In this document: piece by piece, positions 44,247-53,436 of the stretch
Position numbering within the stretch: the first letter of the stretch is position 1
Layout: the number at the start of each line of letters is the position of its first letter
Source of the DNA: Thiobacillus sp. 0-1251
GTDB lineage: Bacteria; Pseudomonadota; Gammaproteobacteria; Burkholderiales; Thiobacillaceae
Reading direction: 5' to 3'
Assembly (NCBI GenBank): GCA_001899305.1
Contig: MKWL01000001.1
Location: 620,001-684,000, forward strand
Length of the DNA: 64,000 nt
Notes under the pieces: generated by a model
Seen by the model: only the letters and a program-made list of their open reading frames with translations
The model's database searches: none
What the model was told of the DNA's origin: nothing
Position numbers and translations under genes: made by a program

Positions 44247-45581
44247 TTACCTGGAGTGGATGCCCAGATAGGCGGCCAGGTCGGTTTCGACCCGGACGAA
44301 TTGTTCCACGTGGCAGACTTCGCGAATTTCCTCGGAAAGGGAGTGGGCGGCTGCAGCGTGGTGGCTGGGCGCAAGAAGGGGCAGGCTGACGCAGATGGCA
44401 AGCTTGAGACGGGTGCGGGTGCGCAGCAGGCGCAAGAATTTCTCCCAGCGTCCGACGGGCCGCTCGGGCAGCCGGATGTCTGCGGTGGCGGGATGGATGC
44501 AGCGAGGGTATTCCCGGGACGTGTCGATGCAGCCCCCTTCCTGATAGATCCCTTTGGGATCGCGCAGCCGCAGCATGCGTTGCAGGATGTACGCCTTGTC
44601 TGCCGGGTCGTTCAGCGAGGCGCGGACCCGCGCCTCGACGAGGCCTTCGTCCATCTGCGGCTCGCCGTGTTCGTCAACGTAGACGCCATGCCGCCAGTGA
44701 TAGATTTCCAGGCATTTCGTCGTCAGGCTGAACGGCTGGTCGCGTTTCCAGAAATTACTGAACAGGCCGTCTCCGAGATAGAACACCCATGAGCCTTCAT
44801 AGCCGGTTACATCGGCGGAGCGTTCGTCGGGGTTGCGAAACCAGAGACGATCGCCCGGGACATAGTATTTCGGCGGCAACGGGGTTTCCATAGCGCCGTA
44901 TTCATGCAGGAAAACATCGTGGAATTGCCCGGACATGATGGGCCGGCTCTCCCACTGGAGTTGCAAACGATGCAGCAATGCGGGGTTGCGGGCGGCCAGT
45001 TCCTGGGCCAGGCCCAGCAGAATGACGTATTCGGTCGCCCGATAGCAGGAAAACGCGTAGAGCTGGCCGGACACGTCGGGCTGGGTGGCCTTCACCAGAC
45101 CTTCGATCAGCGATCGGCCCGGCAGGATGGTGAAGCCTTTGTCCTCGACGTAGGTCCAGTAATCTTCGGGGCGCTCGGCCTCGGTAGTGTGGAAATCGAG
45201 TGCCGTCCGGCGCGCGGCCTGGACGATGTTGCGGCGGATATGGATGGCCGACATGGCCTCGGCGGCACTGGGAAACACGAAGGCCACCGGCCCCAGCAGC
45301 ATGGCCACCAGGATTTCCCGCTCCAGGTCGCCGATGCGGGCCACGGGATCGAGATGGAGGTGCTCGGACAATCGGCTGGTGTCGAAGTCGGGCGCCCATG
45401 CCTGTGTGAGATTCGACGGCAGGTGGAAGCGGAGGTCGAGGCCTTCCTGGCAGGTCTCGACCTGACCATCGAGTTCCAGCGAGGCGAGATAGGTGAGGAA
45501 ATCGCGGCGAGCGACGGCCAGGTTGGCGGCATCCTGTACCTGGATCAGGATGCCGCCGCGGGAAACGTGGATGCGGGTCAT
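44247..45581 (-). CDS. Tgl-like transglutaminase-fold protein in the cyanophycin locus
   Basis: A 444-residue protein. Its middle (about 95-290) aligns, from memory, with Bacillus spore-coat transglutaminase Tgl: AMSAIHIRRNIVQAA, DYWTYVEDKGFTI, QLYAFSCYRATEYVILLGLA, YYVPGDRLWFRNPD and YEGSWVFYLGDG. Cys179 matches the Tgl catalytic Cys116 and Glu262 its Glu187, while the catalytic His appears replaced near Asn276. An extra ~90-residue N-terminal domain and a C-terminal region with basic RTRTRLK are not in Tgl. It is last in the operon ABC-DUF1854-this gene. Cross-linking or isopeptide chemistry on cyanophycin or granule proteins is inference. Confidence 0.7.
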   Translation of the reverse strand: MTRIHVSRGGILIQVQDAANLAVARRDFLTYLASLELDGQVETCQEGLDLRFHLPSNLTQAWAPDFDTSRLSEHLHLDPVARIGDLEREILVAMLLGPVAFVFPSAAEAMSAIHIRRNIVQAARRTALDFHTTEAERPEDYWTYVEDKGFTILPGRSLIEGLVKATQPDVSGQLYAFSCYRATEYVILLGLAQELAARNPALLHRLQLQWESRPIMSGQFHDVFLHEYGAMETPLPPKYYVPGDRLWFRNPDERSADVTGYEGSWVFYLGDGLFSNFWKRDQPFSLTTKCLEIYHWRHGVYVDEHGEPQMDEGLVEARVRASLNDPADKAYILQRMLRLRDPKGIYQEGGCIDTSREYPRCIHPATADIRLPERPVGRWEKFLRLLRTRTRLKLAICVSLPLLAPSHHAAAAHSLSEEIREVCHVEQFVRVETDLAAYLGIHSR

Positions 45582-45605: not shown

Positions 45606-46076
45606 TTACATGAAGCGGTCGAGCAGCCGGCGACTGGTCTTGTCCAGTCTGGACAGCTCGCGGATCAGGTACTGCACGCCGTGACTGTCGCTGATGAGCA
45701 GGGCGGCTGCGCCGAGGCGGCGGATATCTTCCTCGCCCTTGAGAATGAAGCGGGTCTCGCCGCGGTCGGTCTCGACCGTCCAGGTGCTGGGCGTGGCGAA
45801 CGTGGAGACCTGCCGCAGCCGGTGGATCTCCGGCATGAATTCGCGACTGGCCAGTTCGGCTTCGATCAGTTTTCGCGTCACGTCGGGCACGTCGTCCAGA
45901 TGGTCGATCCAGGCCAGTTCGTGGCCGTCCGTGCCCATCAATGCAATGCCTTCCGCCGGCGCAGCGAGGGGGAAAGCACGCACGGGCTGCACGCCTGCAT
46001 GCTCGCTGCCGTCAGGAGCCGTCAGCAGAAGTCGGCCATGCGGGTCGCGGGTGAGTTGGAAGGGAACGGGTGTCAT
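45606..46076 (-). CDS. DUF1854 cyanophycin-associated protein
   Basis: A 156-residue cytoplasmic protein: FQLTRDPHGRLLLTAPDGSEHAGVQPVRAFPLAAP and VDHLDDVP-like DHLDDVPDVTRKLIEAELA, ending RRLGAAALLISDSHGVQYLIRELSRLDKTSRRLLDRFM. This is the DUF1854 pattern that is repeatedly found with cyanophycin genes. It lies between the ABC exporter (6 bases upstream) and the Tgl-like gene (24 bases downstream). Function unknown. Confidence 0.9.
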   Translation of the reverse strand: MTPVPFQLTRDPHGRLLLTAPDGSEHAGVQPVRAFPLAAPAEGIALMGTDGHELAWIDHLDDVPDVTRKLIEAELASREFMPEIHRLRQVSTFATPSTWTVETDRGETRFILKGEEDIRRLGAAALLISDSHGVQYLIRELSRLDKTSRRLLDRFM

Positions 46077-46082
46077 GGCGGG

Positions 46083-48371
46083 TCACTTCGGCATAGGGGG
46101 CTTGGCCTCGGCGCTGGCCGTGGGCAGTTCGTCCAGGTCGGTGTCGACGTTGCGGGCCTGGGCCTGGTAGAGGCGGTAATAGTGACCTTCGCGCGCCATC
46201 AGGTCATCGTGGTTGCCGACTTCGACGATGCGGCCGCGATCCATGACGACCAGCCGGTCGGCCTGGCGCAGGGTGGACAGGCGGTGGGCGATGGCGATCG
46301 TGGTGCGACCGCGCACCAGGTTGTCGAGCGCCTTCTGGATTTCCTTCTCGGTCTCGGTGTCCACCGACGAGGTGGCTTCGTCGAGGATGAGAATGGGCGG
46401 GTCGATCAGCAGCGCCCGGGCGATGGAGATGCGCTGGCGCTCGCCGCCCGAGAGGCCCTGGCCACGTTCGCCCACCAGCGAGTCGTAGCCGTGCGGCAGG
46501 CGCAGGATGAATTCGTGGGCGTGGGCCGCCCGGGCGGCGGCGACGATCTCGGCGCGGCTGGCGCCGGGTTTGCCGTAGGCGATGTTCTCGGCAATGGTGC
46601 CGAAGAACAGGAAAGGCTCCTGCAGGACGAGGCCGATGTGCCGCCGGTACTCCGCCACCGGCAGGGAACGGATGTCGACGCCATCGAGACGGATCGCGCC
46701 TTCCGACAGGTCGTAGAAGCGGCAGATGAGATTGACCAGGGTACTCTTGCCCGAGCCGCTGTGGCCGACGAGGCCGATCATTTCCCCGGGCCGGATATCC
46801 AGGCTGAGGCCACGGATCACGCTGCGGTTGCCGTAGCGGAAGAACGCGTCGCGGATCTCGATGCGGCCCTGCACCCGGTCGAGGTGCGTCGGCCGGGCAG
46901 GCTCGGGAACGCTGGAGACGTGGTCGAGGATGTCGAAGATGCGCTTGGTGCCGGCCGCGGCCTTCTGCGTCACCGAGACGATGCGGCTCATCGAGTCGAG
47001 GCGGCTGTAGAAGCGGCTGATGTAGGCGAGGAAGGCGGTGAGCACGCCGACCGTGATCTGGTCGTGGGCGATCTGCCAGATGCCGAAGGCCCACACCACC
47101 AGCAGGCCGACCTCGGTGAGCAGGGTGACGGTGGGGGAGAAGAGCGACCAGGTCTTGTTGAGGCGGTCGTTGACGGCCAGGTTGTGGCGGTTGGCCTCGC
47201 GGAAGCGCTGCGCCTCGCGCTGCTCCTGGGCGAAGGCCTTGACCACGCGGATGCCGGGAATGGTGTCGGCCAGCACGTTGGTGACCTCCGACCAGACGCG
47301 GTCGATCTTCTCGAAGCCGGTGCGCAGCCGGTCGCGCACGACGTGGATCATCCAGACGATGAAGGGCAGCGGCAGCAGAGTGACGAGCGCGAGCGCCGGG
47401 TTGATCGAGAACAGGATCGCCGCCGTCATGACGATCATCAGCACGTCGGTCGCGAAATCGAGCAGATGCAGCGACAGGAAGACGCAGATGCGGTCGGTTT
47501 CCGAGCCGATGCGCGCCATCAGGTCGCCGGTGCGCTTGCCGCCGAAGTACTCCAGCGAGAGGCGCAGCAGGTGTTCGTAGGTGGTGGTGCGCAGGTCGGC
47601 GCCGATGCGTTCGCTCACCAGCGCGAGGATGTAGGTGCGGGCCCAGCCGAGTCCCCATGCCAGCAGGGCTGAGGCGAGCAGGCCGGCGAGCAGCAGGGCC
47701 ACGACTCCGGTGTCGATCGGCTGGCCGTTCTGGTAGGGAATCAGTACCTTGTCCATCAGGGGCATGGTCAGGTAGGGCGGCACCAGCGTGGCGCCGGTGG
47801 CGGCCAGGGTCAGCAGGAATCCGGCCAGGAGCTGGCCCCGGTAGGGTCTCGCAAAGCGCCACAGCCGGAACAGGGTCCAGGTCGACGGCGCCTCGTGCAG
47901 TTCGCGGCTGCACAGGAGGCATTCCGTCTGGTCGGGCGGCAGTGGCGTCCCGCAGGTGGGGCAGAGGCTTTCATCCGGGGCAGGCACCGGCTGGCCGGAG
48001 AGGTGGGCTGCCAATTCCGCCGTAAAACGGTCGGCCAGCCGCAACGCGGCCCCGTTATGCGCCAGCGTGAAGCGCCAGCTAGCCAGGCGCGAGCTCGTGT
48101 CGTGGAGTTCCAGTGTGCCCACGCCGGCATGGTCGTGATACTGCAGGGACAGCCCTGGTCGCAACGGCCAGTCTGCCCAGCCGGTGTCGCCCGCCGACCG
48201 GGCCAGCAGGCGCCGGTCGGTCAGGACCAGCCGGCCTGCGGCAAACGCCAGATGGGCGTCGAGATTGGGCTCCAGGGTGGCCACGACCGGCTCGCCGGGC
48301 GCAAGTTGCGCGTCCAGATCGGCTTGCCAGGCTGCAGCAGCGCCAGGAAGGGGAGGAGGTGTACGGGTCAT
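46083..48371 (-). CDS. cyanophycin-associated ABC exporter (fused TMD-NBD) with N-terminal zinc ribbon
   Basis: A 762-residue half-transporter. Residues about 20-125 form a beta-rich domain ([41 protein letters not shown]) reminiscent of PH-like domains, then a zinc ribbon with C137, C140, C151 and C154. Six transmembrane helices follow (about 175-450), then the NBD with [17 protein letters not shown] and [12 protein letters not shown]. Such exporters are annotated as cyanophycin-metabolism associated; the substrate is unknown. ATG 48371 is divergent from cphA'. Confidence 0.94.
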
Positions 48372-48620
48372 GGATGAATGGCGTCGCCCCGGGGGAGGGC
48401 ATACCCGCAGGCGCGGCAATAATTTTTTTTCATTTTTCCCTGTGTATCGGCATCCGACCAGCCCCCGGCAAAGCGGCGTTTATTGTATGCTGCGCGGCGT
48501 GGTTCCGTGTAACCTGAACGTAGCAAACAACCATCTTTTCCGGCGAAGCCCCAGCGTCCCGATCCGCCCTTCCATGCCTGCCGCATTTCACCTCATCGTC
48601 CGGTACGGACGTCGTGCGTC
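48372..48620. promoter_or_regulatory. divergent promoter region of the cyanophycin island
   Basis: 249 bases between the ABC exporter and cphA' starts, AT-rich in the middle (AATAATTTTTTTTCATTTTTCC near 48420). It must drive both arms. No clear operator palindrome was identified. Confidence 0.45.
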
Positions 48621-50810
48621 GTGAACAGAAAAACCATCGAATTCCTGCGCGTCATGCATCTGGACGGGCCGAATATCTGGACCTACCGGCCTGTGCTGGA
48701 GGCCTGGGTCGACATCGGCGATCTCGAGGATTCGCCCTCCAATACCCTTCCCGGGCTGTACGAGCGCCTGACCGGCTGGCTGCCCGGCCTGATCGAGCAC
48801 CGCTGCGGCGTCGGCGAGCGCGGCGGTTTCCTGCTGCGCCTGCGCGAAGGAACCTGGCCGGCCCATATTCTCGAACACATCACGATCGAGCTGCAGAACC
48901 TGGCCGGCATGAAAGTCGGCTTTGGCAAGGCGCGCGAGACGGCCGAACGCGGCATCTACAAGATGGTGGTACGCACACGCAACGAACAGGTCGGCCGCGC
49001 CTGCCTGCAGGCGGGGCGCGACCTGCTGATGGCCGCCATCGAGGATCGCCCGTTTGATGTCGAGGGCACTGTGTCGCGTCTGCGCGATCTCGCAGACCGG
49101 CGCTGCCTGGGGCCGAGCACGGCCTGTATCGTCGATGGCGCGGCCAGCCGCCATATCCCGTCCATTCGCCTGACCGAAGGCAACCTGATCCAGCTGGGCT
49201 ACGGTGCCCGTCAACGCCGCATCTGGACGGCTGAGACGGACATGACGGGCGCGATCGCAGAAAGCATCGCAAGCGACAAGGACTTGACCAAGCGCCTGCT
49301 GAAGTCCTGCGGGGTGCCCGTCCCGGACGGCCGTATTGTCGACAGCCTGGACGATGCCTGGGACGCCGCGGAGGAGATCGGCCTGCCGGTCGCGATCAAG
49401 CCGGTGGACGGCAACCATGGCCGGGGCGTGTCCCTCGACCTCACCACCCGGGAGGATGTCGAACGGGCCTATCGGCTGGCCCTGGCGGAGGGAAGCGAGG
49501 TCATCGTCGAGCGCTATGTGCCGGGCAACGAGCACCGGCTGCTGGTGGTCGGCCCGCGCGTCGTCGCGGCGGCGCGCGGCGAGGCGGCCTGGGTGAAGGG
49601 CGATGGCCGCTCGACCATCGCCGAGCTGATCGACAGCCAGCTCAATACCGATCCACGGCGCGGCACGACGGAAGACTACCCGCTCAACCGGATCCTGATC
49701 GACGAAGACCCGGCGGTCGGCCTCGAACTGGCACGCCAGGGGATTGCGCCAACCGACGTCCCGTCAGCAGGGCAGACCATCCTGATCCAGCGCAATGGCA
49801 ACGTCGCTTTCGACGTCACCGACACGCTCCACCCCGATGTGGTGGAAACGGCCGTCCTTGCCGCGCGGGTGGTCGGACTCGACGTGGCGGGAATCGACAT
49901 GGTGGCGGAAGACATTTCCCGGCCGTTGGCAGAACAGGGCGGCGCCATCGTCGAAGTGAACGCGGGACCGGGACTGCTCATGCACCTCAAGCCCGCCGAA
50001 GGCACCCCGCGCCCGGTGGGCCGCGCCATCGTCGACCATCTGTTTCCCGATGGGGAGAGCGGCCGCATTCCCATCGTCGGCATCAGCGGTTCGCAGGGGG
50101 GCGCCTCCATCGCCCATGTGGTCGCCCAGCTGATTGCCTGTACCGGCAAGCGTACGGGTCTGGCCTGTCGTGACGGGCTTTATCTTGGGCTGCGCCAGGT
50201 CAAGCCGGGCAATTGTGCTAGTTGGCGTGCGGGCCGACAGTTGCTGATGAACCGGGGCGTGGATGCCGCCGTCTTCGAGCACGATGCCCGTTCGATCCTT
50301 CAGGAGGGCTATGCCTATGACCGCTGCCAGGTCGGCGTGGTGACCGACCTGCAGATGGATGCCTCGCTCGCGGAGTACTACATTCGCGAACCCGGACAGA
50401 TGGTCACGGTCATGCGCACCCAGGTTGACTTGGTGCTGCCGGACGGGGTGGCGGTTCTGCATGCGGGCGACCCGGCCGTGGCCGAACTGGCCTCGCTGTG
50501 CGATGGGACGGTGCTGTTCTATGCCCTCGAGCCCGGGCTGCCGGTGATCGATGCGCACTGTGCAGGCGGCGGCCGGGCCCTGTTTCTCCGCGACAACCAT
50601 GTGGTCGTCGCGGGCGCCACGGGCGAGACGCCGCTCTTCAGCCTGGCGGCCTTGCACCCCGCCATGAATGGAAAGCCGCTGCTCCAGCCCCTGTACGTTC
50701 TCGCCGCAGTGGGGGTGGCGCTGGCGCTTGATATTCCGCCGGAACTGATTCGTGCGGCAATGGATACCTGCGTGTCGTTGCCCACCCCTGCGATCCAGAC
50801 CAACTACTAG
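48621..50810 (+). CDS. cphA': cyanophycin synthetase-like protein with degenerate Mur domain
   Basis: A 729-residue homologue of cyanophycin synthetase. The N-terminal domain and ATP-grasp domain are complete (GPSTACIVDGAA, VAIKPVDGNHGRGVSLDL, VIVERYVPGNEHRLLVV, GGAIVEVNAGPGLLMHL). The Mur-ligase-like domain is shortened and its P-loop reads GISGSQGGASI (about 486-496) instead of GTNGKTTT, so the Arg-adding reaction should be dead. The product may be a polymerase partner of CphA or a CphA2-type dipeptide polymerase. GTG start; cphA follows after 55 bases. Confidence 0.93.
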   Translation: MNRKTIEFLRVMHLDGPNIWTYRPVLEAWVDIGDLEDSPSNTLPGLYERLTGWLPGLIEHRCGVGERGGFLLRLREGTWPAHILEHITIELQNLAGMKVGFGKARETAERGIYKMVVRTRNEQVGRACLQAGRDLLMAAIEDRPFDVEGTVSRLRDLADRRCLGPSTACIVDGAASRHIPSIRLTEGNLIQLGYGARQRRIWTAETDMTGAIAESIASDKDLTKRLLKSCGVPVPDGRIVDSLDDAWDAAEEIGLPVAIKPVDGNHGRGVSLDLTTREDVERAYRLALAEGSEVIVERYVPGNEHRLLVVGPRVVAAARGEAAWVKGDGRSTIAELIDSQLNTDPRRGTTEDYPLNRILIDEDPAVGLELARQGIAPTDVPSAGQTILIQRNGNVAFDVTDTLHPDVVETAVLAARVVGLDVAGIDMVAEDISRPLAEQGGAIVEVNAGPGLLMHLKPAEGTPRPVGRAIVDHLFPDGESGRIPIVGISGSQGGASIAHVVAQLIACTGKRTGLACRDGLYLGLRQVKPGNCASWRAGRQLLMNRGVDAAVFEHDARSILQEGYAYDRCQVGVVTDLQMDASLAEYYIREPGQMVTVMRTQVDLVLPDGVAVLHAGDPAVAELASLCDGTVLFYALEPGLPVIDAHCAGGGRALFLRDNHVVVAGATGETPLFSLAALHPAMNGKPLLQPLYVLAAVGVALALDIPPELIRAAMDTCVSLPTPAIQTNY

Positions 50811-50865
50811 GAATACGATCCGGCAGGGCGAGCCTGCCACGGGATACCCAACAGGAACGGCGTTC

Positions 50866-53436
50866 ATGGAAATATCACGCATCCGGGCACTGCGCGGGCC
50901 CAATCTCTGGAGCCGACACACGGCCATCGAGGCACTGGCGCAGTGTGCGCCCGAGGAGCGGTTGATCGACTCGATCAACGGGTTCGAGGCGCGCTTGCGG
51001 GCGCGTTTTCCGGAAATTGGTCCGATGCGTCCGATCGGTCAGGAGGATGATATTTCCGTGGCGCATGCGCTGGCGTTTGCCGCGCTCGGCCTGCAGGCGC
51101 AGGCTGGCTGTCCGGTCAGTTTCTGCGTCACGTCGCCCACGGTCGAGGCGGGAATCTACCAGCTTGTCTTCGAATATACCGAGGAGGCAGTCGGACGACT
51201 GGCGCTCGAACTGGCCGAGTCGCTGTGCCGGGCCGCGCACGACGATACCCCGTTCGATCTGGAGGGCGCCCTGGCGCGCCTGCGGGAACTGGACGAAGAC
51301 GTTCGCCTCGGTCCCAGTACCGGCGCAATCGTCCAGGCCGCCGTCGCGCGCGGCATTCCCTACCGGCGGCTGACGGCGAGCAGCCTGGTGCAGTTTGGCT
51401 GGGGAAGCCGCCAACGGCGTATCCAGGCCGCCGAGACGGATACGACCTGCGCCATTTCCGAGGCGATCGCCCAGGACAAGGATCTCACCAAGACGCTGCT
51501 GGAGGCTGCGGGCGTGCCGGTACCGCTCGGGCGGATCGTGACCGATGCCGAGGCAGGCTGGGCGGCCGCCTGCGAGATCGGTCTGCCGGTGGTGGTCAAG
51601 CCGCGCGACGGCAATCAGGGAAAAGGAGTGACGGTCAACATCCTGACGCGGGAACACTTCATGGCGGTCTATGGTGCCGCAGCGGCGATTAGCGAGGCAG
51701 TCCTGGTCGAGCGCTTCATTCCTGGCCATGACTACCGCCTGCTCGTGGTCGGCAACCGTCTGGTTGCCGCCGCTCGCCGCGAACCGCCGCATGTGATCGG
51801 CGATGCCGTCCATACCGTGCGCGAACTCGTCGCGCAGGTGAACAGCGACCCGCGCCGCGGCGAAGGCCATGCCACGTCCCTGACCAAAATCCGCCTCGAC
51901 GATATCGCCATGGCCCGTCTGGCTGTGCACGGCCTGGATGCGGACTCGATCCCCGCCATGGGGGAGCGGGTCGTCCTGCGCAACAATGCCAATCTGAGCA
52001 CGGGCGGTACGGCGACCGATGTGACCGACGATGTCCATCCCGACGTGGCGGCCCGCGCGGTGGAAGCCGCGCAGATGATCGGGTTGGACATCTGCGGCGT
52101 CGATGCGGTCTGCCAGACCGTGCACAAGCCGCTTGAAGAGCAGGGCGGAGGGATCGTCGAGGTCAACGCGGCGCCGGGTCTGCGCATGCATCTCATGCCT
52201 TCCTATGGCAAGGGGCAGCCGGTGGGCGAGGCCATCGTCTCGGCCTTGTTCCCGCCCGGCGAGGATGGACGCATTCCCGTCGTGGCGGTGACCGGCACCA
52301 ACGGCAAGACCACGACCGTGCGCCTGATCGCCCATTTTCTGACGCTTGCCGGCAAGCGCGTCGGCATGACGGCGACGGACGGTGTGTATGTGCAGGGACG
52401 GCGCATCGACACCGGCGACTGCAGCGGCCCGAAAAGTGCACGCAACATCCTCATGCATCCGGATGTCGACGCGGCGGTGCTGGAGACTGCCCGCGGCGGG
52501 CTGTTACGCGAGGGTCTGGCGTTCGACCGCTGCAAGGTCGCGGTGGTGACGAATATCGGCATGGGCGACCATCTCGGCCTCAACTTCATCACCACGGTGG
52601 AGGATCTCGCCGTGCTCAAGCAGGTCGTGGTGCAGAACGTTGCACCGGATGGCATGGCAGTTCTCAATGCCTGCGATCCCAAATGCGTCGAGATGGCGAT
52701 CCATTGTCCGGGATTGATCATCTTCTTCGCCGGCGAGTCACATCATCCCATCATCGCGGCCCATCGTGCACAGGGACATCGGGTGGTCTACCTGGACGGA
52801 GACTGCCTCGTGGCGGCGCTGGGCGACAGCGAGCAACGCCTGCCGCTGGCGGAGATCTCGCTGACGCGCGGCGGCACCATCCGTTTCCAGATCGAGAATG
52901 CGATGGCGGCCACGGCTGCCGCCTGGGCGCTGGAGCTGGACTGGGACCTCATCCGACGCGGCCTGCACAGTTTCGACAGTACGGCGCAGAACGTCCCGGG
53001 CCGCTTCAACCTGTTCGATTACCGTGGTGCCACGCTCATCGCCGACTATGGCCACAACCCCGATGCCATCCTCGCCCTCGTCAGGGCGGTGGACGCGCTG
53101 CCGGCGCAACGCCGGATCGTCGTGATCAGTGGTGCGGGCGACCGGCGGGACGAGGATATCCGCGAACAGACCCGTGCCCTGGGTGCGGCATTCGACGAGG
53201 CCATTCTTTATCAGGATCAGTGCCAGCGCGGCCGTGCTGAAGGCGAGGTGTTGGCTCTGCTGCGCGAAGGTCTGCGCGACGCCCCGCGCACGCGTGACAT
53301 CACCGAAATCACCGGCGAATTCCTGGCCATCGATATCGCCCTGTCGCACTTGAAGCCGGGTGACCTGTGCCTGATTCTGATCGATCAGGTGGAGGAGGCT
53401 CTGGCCCATATCGCCCGGCGCATCGCCGAGTCCTGA
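50866..53436 (+). CDS. cphA: cyanophycin synthetase
   Basis: An 856-residue enzyme that makes multi-L-arginyl-poly-L-aspartate granules: an ATP-grasp module adds Asp to the backbone and a Mur-ligase module adds Arg to each side chain. Visible are the N-terminal domain (MEISRIRALRGPNLWS), ATP-grasp KPRDGNQGKGVTVN, NAAPGLRMHL, and Mur P-loop GTNGKTTTVRLI at about 477-488, then ADYGHNPDAI and a complete C-terminal lobe. All motifs look intact. RBS AGGAACGG. Storage of nitrogen and carbon is the expected role. Second gene of the rightward operon. Confidence 0.97.
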   Translation: MEISRIRALRGPNLWSRHTAIEALAQCAPEERLIDSINGFEARLRARFPEIGPMRPIGQEDDISVAHALAFAALGLQAQAGCPVSFCVTSPTVEAGIYQLVFEYTEEAVGRLALELAESLCRAAHDDTPFDLEGALARLRELDEDVRLGPSTGAIVQAAVARGIPYRRLTASSLVQFGWGSRQRRIQAAETDTTCAISEAIAQDKDLTKTLLEAAGVPVPLGRIVTDAEAGWAAACEIGLPVVVKPRDGNQGKGVTVNILTREHFMAVYGAAAAISEAVLVERFIPGHDYRLLVVGNRLVAAARREPPHVIGDAVHTVRELVAQVNSDPRRGEGHATSLTKIRLDDIAMARLAVHGLDADSIPAMGERVVLRNNANLSTGGTATDVTDDVHPDVAARAVEAAQMIGLDICGVDAVCQTVHKPLEEQGGGIVEVNAAPGLRMHLMPSYGKGQPVGEAIVSALFPPGEDGRIPVVAVTGTNGKTTTVRLIAHFLTLAGKRVGMTATDGVYVQGRRIDTGDCSGPKSARNILMHPDVDAAVLETARGGLLREGLAFDRCKVAVVTNIGMGDHLGLNFITTVEDLAVLKQVVVQNVAPDGMAVLNACDPKCVEMAIHCPGLIIFFAGESHHPIIAAHRAQGHRVVYLDGDCLVAALGDSEQRLPLAEISLTRGGTIRFQIENAMAATAAAWALELDWDLIRRGLHSFDSTAQNVPGRFNLFDYRGATLIADYGHNPDAILALVRAVDALPAQRRIVVISGAGDRRDEDIREQTRALGAAFDEAILYQDQCQRGRAEGEVLALLREGLRDAPRTRDITEITGEFLAIDIALSHLKPGDLCLILIDQVEEALAHIARRIAES

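Follow-up and report, generated by a model that had tools for sequence, protein, structure and literature searches.

Cyanophycin, a nitrogen-storage polymer, is made in the cytoplasm. In the 64,000-nucleotide stretch analyzed here (the window), two cyanophycin synthetase genes lie on the plus strand, divergent from a three-gene operon on the minus strand. The synthetase gene cphA occupies the open frame 50752..53436, which opens upstream of the likely start, and its product matches TIGR02068 at 956.8 bits (cut-off 850). The second synthetase gene, cphA' (48621..50810), is shorter than cphA; its product matches NF010623 at 1016.3 bits (cut-off 877) and scores 696.6 bits with TIGR02068, below the cut-off of 850. 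CphA' has GSQGGA where CphA carries the Mur-ligase P-loop GTNGKT, and a Pfam search found no Mur ligase match in it, with the ATP-grasp match remaining.

The minus-strand operon begins with an ABC transporter gene (46083..48419, the open frame as listed, inside which the true start may lie; NF052233, 1446.6 bits, cut-off 880). It continues with a DUF1854 protein gene (45606..46076; PF08909, E = 4.9e-53; NF052234, 239.3 bits, cut-off 150) and ends with a gene for a 444-residue TGL-family protein (44247..45581; PF20085 and PDB Tgl chains), whose reading frame is intact in the ORF listing of the window. The gaps between these genes are 6 bp and 24 bp. A sequence-only reading had described the TGL gene as the last of an ABC-DUF1854 operon opposite cphA'-cphA, and the ORF positions and short gaps bear this out. 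With cphA, cphA' and the genes matching NF052233 and NF052234 adjacent to each other, the window holds a cyanophycin locus of the CphA/CphA'/ABC/DUF1854 type. NCBIfam names these last two families "cyanophycin metabolism-associated ABC transporter" and "cyanophycin metabolism-associated DUF1854 family protein," and this type of locus has thus been curated before; none of the NCBIfam models ties a TGL protein to cyanophycin. Compared with these two curated families, the TGL gene lies in the same operon here and occurs mostly in the same genomes. The closest relative among the fetched loci (the best 80 of 112) is 95% identical over the whole protein and comes from a metagenome-assembled genome titled Thiobacillus denitrificans.

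Likeness of the TGL-family protein to Bacillus Tgl

Residues 81 to 343 match PF20085 (Pfam TGL, "protein-glutamine gamma-glutamyltransferase") at 118.5 bits (cut-off 23.7; E = 3.8e-34). A phmmer comparison of the protein with PDB 7c9j gives E = 1.7e-8, and a profile search against solved Bacillus Tgl chains gives E = 2e-16 for 7c9j and 2e-9 for 4p8i. As judged by sequence, the family resemblance is far beyond chance, and the likeness to Bacillus Tgl that had been seen by eye in the middle of the protein is confirmed. The Tgl equivalog model NF002869 gives 35.7 bits and its cut-off of 307 is not reached; the protein is thus a homologous member of the family, yet is not filed as Tgl. For comparisons within the family we aligned 77 sequences including the window protein (set A1; locus L001 is the window itself), while the other 31 of the 108 loci proteins were left out, being almost duplicates or to keep the set short. 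All 77 match PF20085 at E <= 0.001, as expected, since they were found via PF20085 or the window protein.

Bacillus Tgl forms glutamyl-lysine cross-links in spore coats; betaproteobacteria are not known to sporulate. The window protein shares with Tgl (PF20085; 4p8i and 7c9j; NF002869) the core, the catalytic Cys, and the PGDxxxFxNPD and YLGDGLF-type motifs, whereas it has longer N- and C-terminal parts with conserved residues of their own (K289, E292, W296, G349-G350, and R356) and occurs in betaproteobacteria in association with cyanophycin genes. Cyanophycinase CphB (TIGR02069) belongs to a serine hydrolase family unrelated to TGL, and the only possible likeness between the two would be a shared substrate. 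In the available part of PMC10318531, TGL is grouped with the NlpC/P60 peptidases in one papain-like cluster that has a "GD" motif. The window protein has this motif as P242-G243-D244; a Pfam search up to E = 1 gave no NlpC/P60 match for it.

The last residues of the protein (376 to 444; 44247..44456, minus strand) form a basic C-terminal extension of about 69 residues with a pI of 9.4 and one hydrophobic stretch. Alignment columns from 380 on are gapped in 91 of the 97 clade-A rows (the window protein's own clade); the extension is present in the other 6, which by ORF length are the Thiobacillus group. No signal peptide is evident: judged by a crude hydropathy threshold, 66 of 69 clade-A proteins lack a hydrophobic stretch at the N terminus, and 3 of the 69 pass. 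Because most of these proteins have no hydrophobic N terminus, the clade-A enzyme probably works in the cytoplasm.

A conserved cysteine in a remodeled active site

Tgl residues are numbered here from the residue names in PMC6490927 (partial text), which describes Cys116 of B. subtilis Tgl as paired with Glu187 or Glu115. Activity was not detected for the C116A, E115A, and H200A mutants, and E187A kept about 60%; R185 and H200 line the tunnel mouths, His200 on the Lys side (same source and part). We aligned the window protein to Tgl by HMM and by MAFFT and counted conservation in 97 clade-A sequences of the 108, that is, all except the 8 rows of a second clade (clade B) and L029, L078, and L080. 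Some rows represent one genome from two collections (for example L005/L042, L008/L040, and L017/L060), recognized by equal length and identity and by equal cphA places. Identities of clade-A proteins to the window protein go down to 42%.

The residue equivalent to Tgl Cys116 is Cys179 (codon 45045..45047, minus strand), the predicted nucleophile, which is Cys in 97/97 clade-A rows; the earlier claim that the catalytic cysteine is retained therefore stands. The preceding residue, Ser178 (45048..45050, minus strand; Ser in 96/97 rows), takes the place of Tgl Glu115. Both alignments set Tgl W184-R185-G186-E187-N188 against Y261-E262-G263-S264-W265, ungapped into YLGDGLF in 7c9j. By this alignment the place of Glu187 is taken by Ser264 (44790..44792, minus strand; invariant in A1) and that of Arg185 by Glu262 (44796..44798, minus strand; invariant in the 96/96 rows with a residue there). 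Retention of the catalytic glutamate had also been claimed: Glu262 is indeed invariant, but it aligns with an arginine of Tgl, and both glutamates of the Tgl dyad are replaced by serine. The His200 position falls at Phe277 when counted from the last aligned column, in the YLGDGLF block. This assignment, which agrees with the earlier impression of a changed histidine, is less firm than the others, with a MAFFT gap there in the Niallia Tgl, the only Tgl that extends far enough to cover the region. Glu187 is also absent from the Niallia Tgl, and Glu115 is kept. Of the 16 columns invariant in A1 (77 rows, the second clade included), none is His; they include Cys179, Glu262, Ser264, Lys289, Glu292, Trp296, Gly349, Gly350, and Arg356.

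In contrast to Bacillus Tgl, then, the window protein has lost both dyad glutamates and probably His200, and has an invariant glutamate in place of Arg185. Since Ser178 and Ser264 stand where Tgl has Glu115 and Glu187, it is doubtful that the protein is an ordinary Gln-Lys cross-linker. We infer a putative Cys-Glu site with the glutamate two residues earlier than in Tgl, which would point to the same face if this segment is a strand, as it is in Tgl. Catalytic partners shift position in other papain-like families too (PMC10318531, partial text). A glutamate replacing an arginine may favor a basic substrate.

Gene neighborhoods in relatives

A search for relatives of the window protein gave 112 confirmed candidates, the best 80 of which were fetched (L029-L108) with flanks of at most 10 kb and often less, within which linkage was counted. 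Genes of the cyanophycin system lie near TGL in 18 of these 80 loci, in four arrangements. Seven loci (L029-L034 and L050) have ABC-DUF1854-TGL in one direction, as in the window. In one (L040), cphA', cphA, and TGL are co-directional, with TGL directly behind cphA. Six (L044, L049, L054, L076, L077, and L093) place TGL tail-to-tail with DUF1854. The remaining four, with verrucomicrobial titles (L092, L094, L095, and L107), have TGL facing DUF1854 and the ABC gene across one membrane-protein gene, whose product has no Pfam match and differs from the acyltransferase described below. In L094 and L095, where cphA' lies within the sequence, TGL stands behind it. No cph gene was counted in the fetched flank of the other 62 loci; L039, with an ABC fragment (57% identical) at a contig end 6.6 kb from TGL, was not counted as linked. 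A rapidly built protein tree (77 sequences, with weak support on 27 of its 74 inner branches) requires no fewer than 5 changes between the linked and unlinked states.

The loci with verrucomicrobial titles are of the betaproteobacterial type, TGL included, with only parts of the locus in L107. Three verrucomicrobial TGL proteins sit inside the betaproteobacterial part of the tree, and their position suggests that the TGL/cph locus was transferred between phyla. In a draw around the verrucomicrobial genome G693, TGL was found in 1 of 194 genomes, G693 itself.

When flanking ORFs within 3 kb of TGL were clustered (best 80 of 112 relatives), the neighbors recovered were the cph genes, counted from ORF calls (the ABC transporter in 17 loci, DUF1854 in 12, and cphA/cphA' in 11). 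Apart from these, one family recurred, a membrane protein of the Acyl_transf_3 family (PF01757), found in 13 loci by ORFs; tblastn adds L045, for 14 of the 80 loci, with cph genes not nearby. It is co-directional with TGL and directly behind it in 10 loci (L048, L056, L058, L059, L063, L065, L069, L070, L072, and L074) and on the opposite strand in four (L039, L045, L088, and L098). All 14 genomes carry cphA. We rejected the idea that this neighbor is lineage specific, as it is too widespread (titles of Rhodoferax, other Comamonadaceae, Rhodocyclales, and Pigmentiphaga). The remaining neighbor families occur in 8 or fewer loci and are smaller and more local. No other result speaks as strongly as the PF01757 neighbor against TGL being tied exclusively to the cph locus. 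Possibly the membrane acyltransferase is a second partner of the TGL enzyme, and, more speculatively, it may be a second clue to function, with both neighborhoods pointing to acyl transfer.

Co-occurrence with cyanophycin genes

Among 250 genomes sampled evenly from the window's order (120 genera), PF20085 was present in 26 genomes and 18 genera. cphA (TIGR02068, E up to 1e-70) was called in 96 of the 250, 89 of them over the curated cut-off, and NF052234 (DUF1854) in 85. Among the TGL-bearing genomes, 25/26 have cphA, versus 96/250 overall, and 24/26 have NF052234. The exceptions are G154, where a TGL fragment lies at a contig end in a genome without cphA and NF052234 and with no cph gene on that contig (L119), and G122, where TGL lies behind cphA and the DUF1854 gene was not found. 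Fisher tests, which ignore kinship, give p = 8e-11 by genome and 2e-6 by genus (17/18 genera). From the best 80 of 112 relatives, 79 genomes were searched (that of L082 being outside this set), and 78 carry cphA (48/49 and 30/30), 70 of the 79 over the curated cut-off; the exception, G648 (locus L064, 2.2 Mb), has TGL without cphA. The two surveys share at least three genomes. TGL is an accessory gene, since 71 of the 96 cphA genomes do not have it. In a phylum-wide draw it was found in 4 of 398 genomes, all of the window's own order, and plasmid records gave no match to the window protein.

RuBisCO served as a control family; at the PF00016 threshold used (E up to 1e-20), which also captures RuBisCO-like proteins, it is present in 111 of the 250 genomes. 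It too is associated with TGL (21/26; odds ratio 6.3, p = 8e-5). Lineage or ecology and lifestyle therefore account for some of the co-occurrence of TGL and cphA. The odds ratio for cphA and TGL, 54, is higher, and the association holds on both sides of the control: cphA is present in 20/21 TGL-positive versus 29/90 TGL-negative genomes with RuBisCO, and in 5/5 versus 42/134 without it. The proposed recurrence of the gene with cyanophycin genes was thus upheld by both surveys and the four arrangements, against a real lineage background. Among cphA genomes, RuBisCO occurs in 20/25 with TGL versus 29/71 without; this enrichment of TGL in RuBisCO-bearing genomes may hint at a connection with autotrophy.

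All 85 genomes with NF052234 have cphA, and 11 of the 96 cphA genomes are without NF052234. Cyanophycinase was found in 5 of 10 tested genomes without NF052234 (one of which, G154, is without cphA). On these two counts, there are apparently two types of cph system within one order.

Proposed function and alternatives

The four gene orders near cph genes, with the near-complete nesting of TGL in cphA genomes, make a functional link of the TGL gene with cyanophycin quite likely. The specific reading that we prefer is more tentative, with a probability of roughly 0.4: a papain-like enzyme of the TGL family, acting in the cytoplasm and transferring acyl groups through its cysteine, recruited and dedicated to the betaproteobacterial cyanophycin system of CphA, CphA', ABC transporter, and DUF1854 protein. 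It starts from the observed family membership, conserved cysteine, remodeled active-site columns, gene order, and recurrence with cph genes. From these we infer the activity, the substrate, the role of Glu262, and transfer rather than hydrolysis. An acyl-enzyme would form when Cys179 attacks an amide in a side chain, in the likeliest case the isopeptide bond of beta-aspartyl-arginine (or -lysine) in cyanophycin. Glu262, at the Arg185 position, would replace the partners Glu115 and Glu187 and suit a guanidinium-rich substrate. The acyl group would then pass to an amine, supplied by a Lys residue either in cyanophycin that contains lysine or in a granule protein, leaving the polymer cross-linked or anchored. 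The differences at the Tgl tunnel-mouth residues R185 and, less surely, H200 are as expected for another substrate. As a mechanism, Cys179-dependent acyl transfer on cyanophycin itself appears most likely, ahead of hydrolysis and then of modification of a Cph protein. Several points stand against this reading. With Glu115, Glu187, and probably His200 of Tgl lost, the protein may carry out a different reaction or none at all, and cyanophycin is not known to contain Gln, the normal acyl donor. The 71 cphA genomes without TGL, the 62 of 80 loci with no cph gene counted, and the RuBisCO association also weigh against it.

Were water to resolve the acyl-enzyme, Cys179 attack on the beta-Asp-Arg bond would release arginine or cut chains, and the protein would be a cyanophycin isopeptidase. 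We regard this as unlikely, while noting that it would give one answer to nitrogen recovery in betaproteobacteria without cyanophycinase, or would describe a primer maker. The shared papain-like cluster with NlpC/P60 peptidases fits hydrolysis, as does the scarcity of cyanophycinase (TIGR02069, E up to 1e-5): it is absent from the window's genome and matched in 7 of 70 tested genomes with an NF052234-type locus (2/24 with TGL and 5/46 without), 4 of the 70 being over the curated cut-off. The available text of PMC5178258 likewise reports that no betaproteobacterial cyanophycinase had been found and expects an alternative pathway. However, TGL is also absent from 41 of the 63 such genomes without a cyanophycinase match and so is not the general answer, and the anti-correlation of TGL and cyanophycinase is not significant. 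A one-for-one substitution of TGL for cyanophycinase is unsupported, with TIGR02069 in 2/25 TGL-positive and 10/54 TGL-negative cphA genomes (p = 0.32; 54 of the 71 TGL-negative cphA genomes were taken in and 17 left out). Less likely still is a modifier of proteins that would, like Tgl, cross-link or conjugate CphA, CphA', DUF1854, the ABC transporter, or a granule protein via Gln and Lys. This is the chemistry of the nearest characterized relative (PMC6490927, partial text), and the gene order with DUF1854 and ABC suits it, but residues needed for Tgl activity, Glu115 and, less surely, the Lys-side His200, are replaced here.

The loss of the known Tgl catalytic partners would also be explained by a noncatalytic or repurposed TGL-fold protein, for example one that binds cyanophycin granules or helps them to assemble. 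Such a role seems improbable, for Cys179 in 97/97 and Glu262 in 96/96 rows, at identities down to 42%, are hard to explain without catalysis. Equally improbable is that TGL has no functional link with cyanophycin and merely shares lineages or lifestyle with it, its true partner lying elsewhere, for example in the membrane acyltransferase. The RuBisCO association, the 62 of 80 loci with no counted cph gene, TGL without cphA in G154, and the acyltransferase beside TGL all argue in this direction; the acyltransferase neighbor weakens both the preferred acyl-transfer reading and the protein-substrate alternative and strengthens this one. Against it, the cphA association is strong with and without RuBisCO, 14/14 genomes with the acyltransferase neighbor have cphA, and linkage to cph genes occurs in four arrangements and, by record title, two phyla.

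In the literature searched (most subscription papers and all bioRxiv-only preprints lie outside it), none of the matches listed connects a TGL protein with cyanophycin, and no paper joins cyanophycin and DUF1854. Papers on cyanophycin and transglutaminase, judged by titles or the openings of abstracts and by the available part of PMC7522526, gave no such link, and the word transglutaminase occurs 0 times in the accessible portions of a bioinformatic survey of cyanophycin genes (PMC10206079) and of an activated-sludge study (PMC10687191). The latter, in the same portion, describes two cphA copies clustered with an ABC transporter gene. Provisionally, then, the link of TGL with cyanophycin is new. 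The odds are somewhat short of even that the protein represents a new class of cyanophycin modifier, a TGL cysteine enzyme with its own predicted Cys-Glu site that would make or break beta-aspartyl isopeptide bonds in cyanophycin. Its action would either cross-link or anchor granules covalently or, in bacteria without cyanophycinase, set arginine free. Betaproteobacteria have paired cyanophycin synthetases and mostly no recognized cyanophycinase, and an unknown pathway is expected in PMC5178258 (partial text); the TGL gene may supply a step, so far undescribed, by which the polymer is made, anchored, or unlocked. With a conserved cysteine enzyme nearly confined to cyanophycin-synthetase genomes, the question of polymer use gains a gene, a predicted nucleophile, and several culturable hosts. 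If correct, this would be the first role of the TGL family outside spore coats, as far as the available parts of PMC6490927 and PMC10318531 go. It would be a second role for the family, with a rebuilt active site, and could provide a means to cross-link or tailor cyanophycin materials.

A second clade of TGL proteins

The eight clade-B proteins (L021-L028; context L111-L118) are 21 to 27% identical to the window protein and have the same Cys and Glu. Six of the eight ORFs begin with a hydrophobic, signal-peptide-like stretch, and because of these starts clade-B proteins may act outside the cytoplasm. No neighbor family occurs in more than 2 of the eight clade-B stretches, in one of which (L112) the TGL gene itself escaped the ORF caller. 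All eight host genomes carry cphA. Both clades occur in G047, on different contigs, and in G182, where they lie about 9 kb apart (G182:C1:2431998-2442248, L111) with the cphA genes far off at 1.23 Mb.
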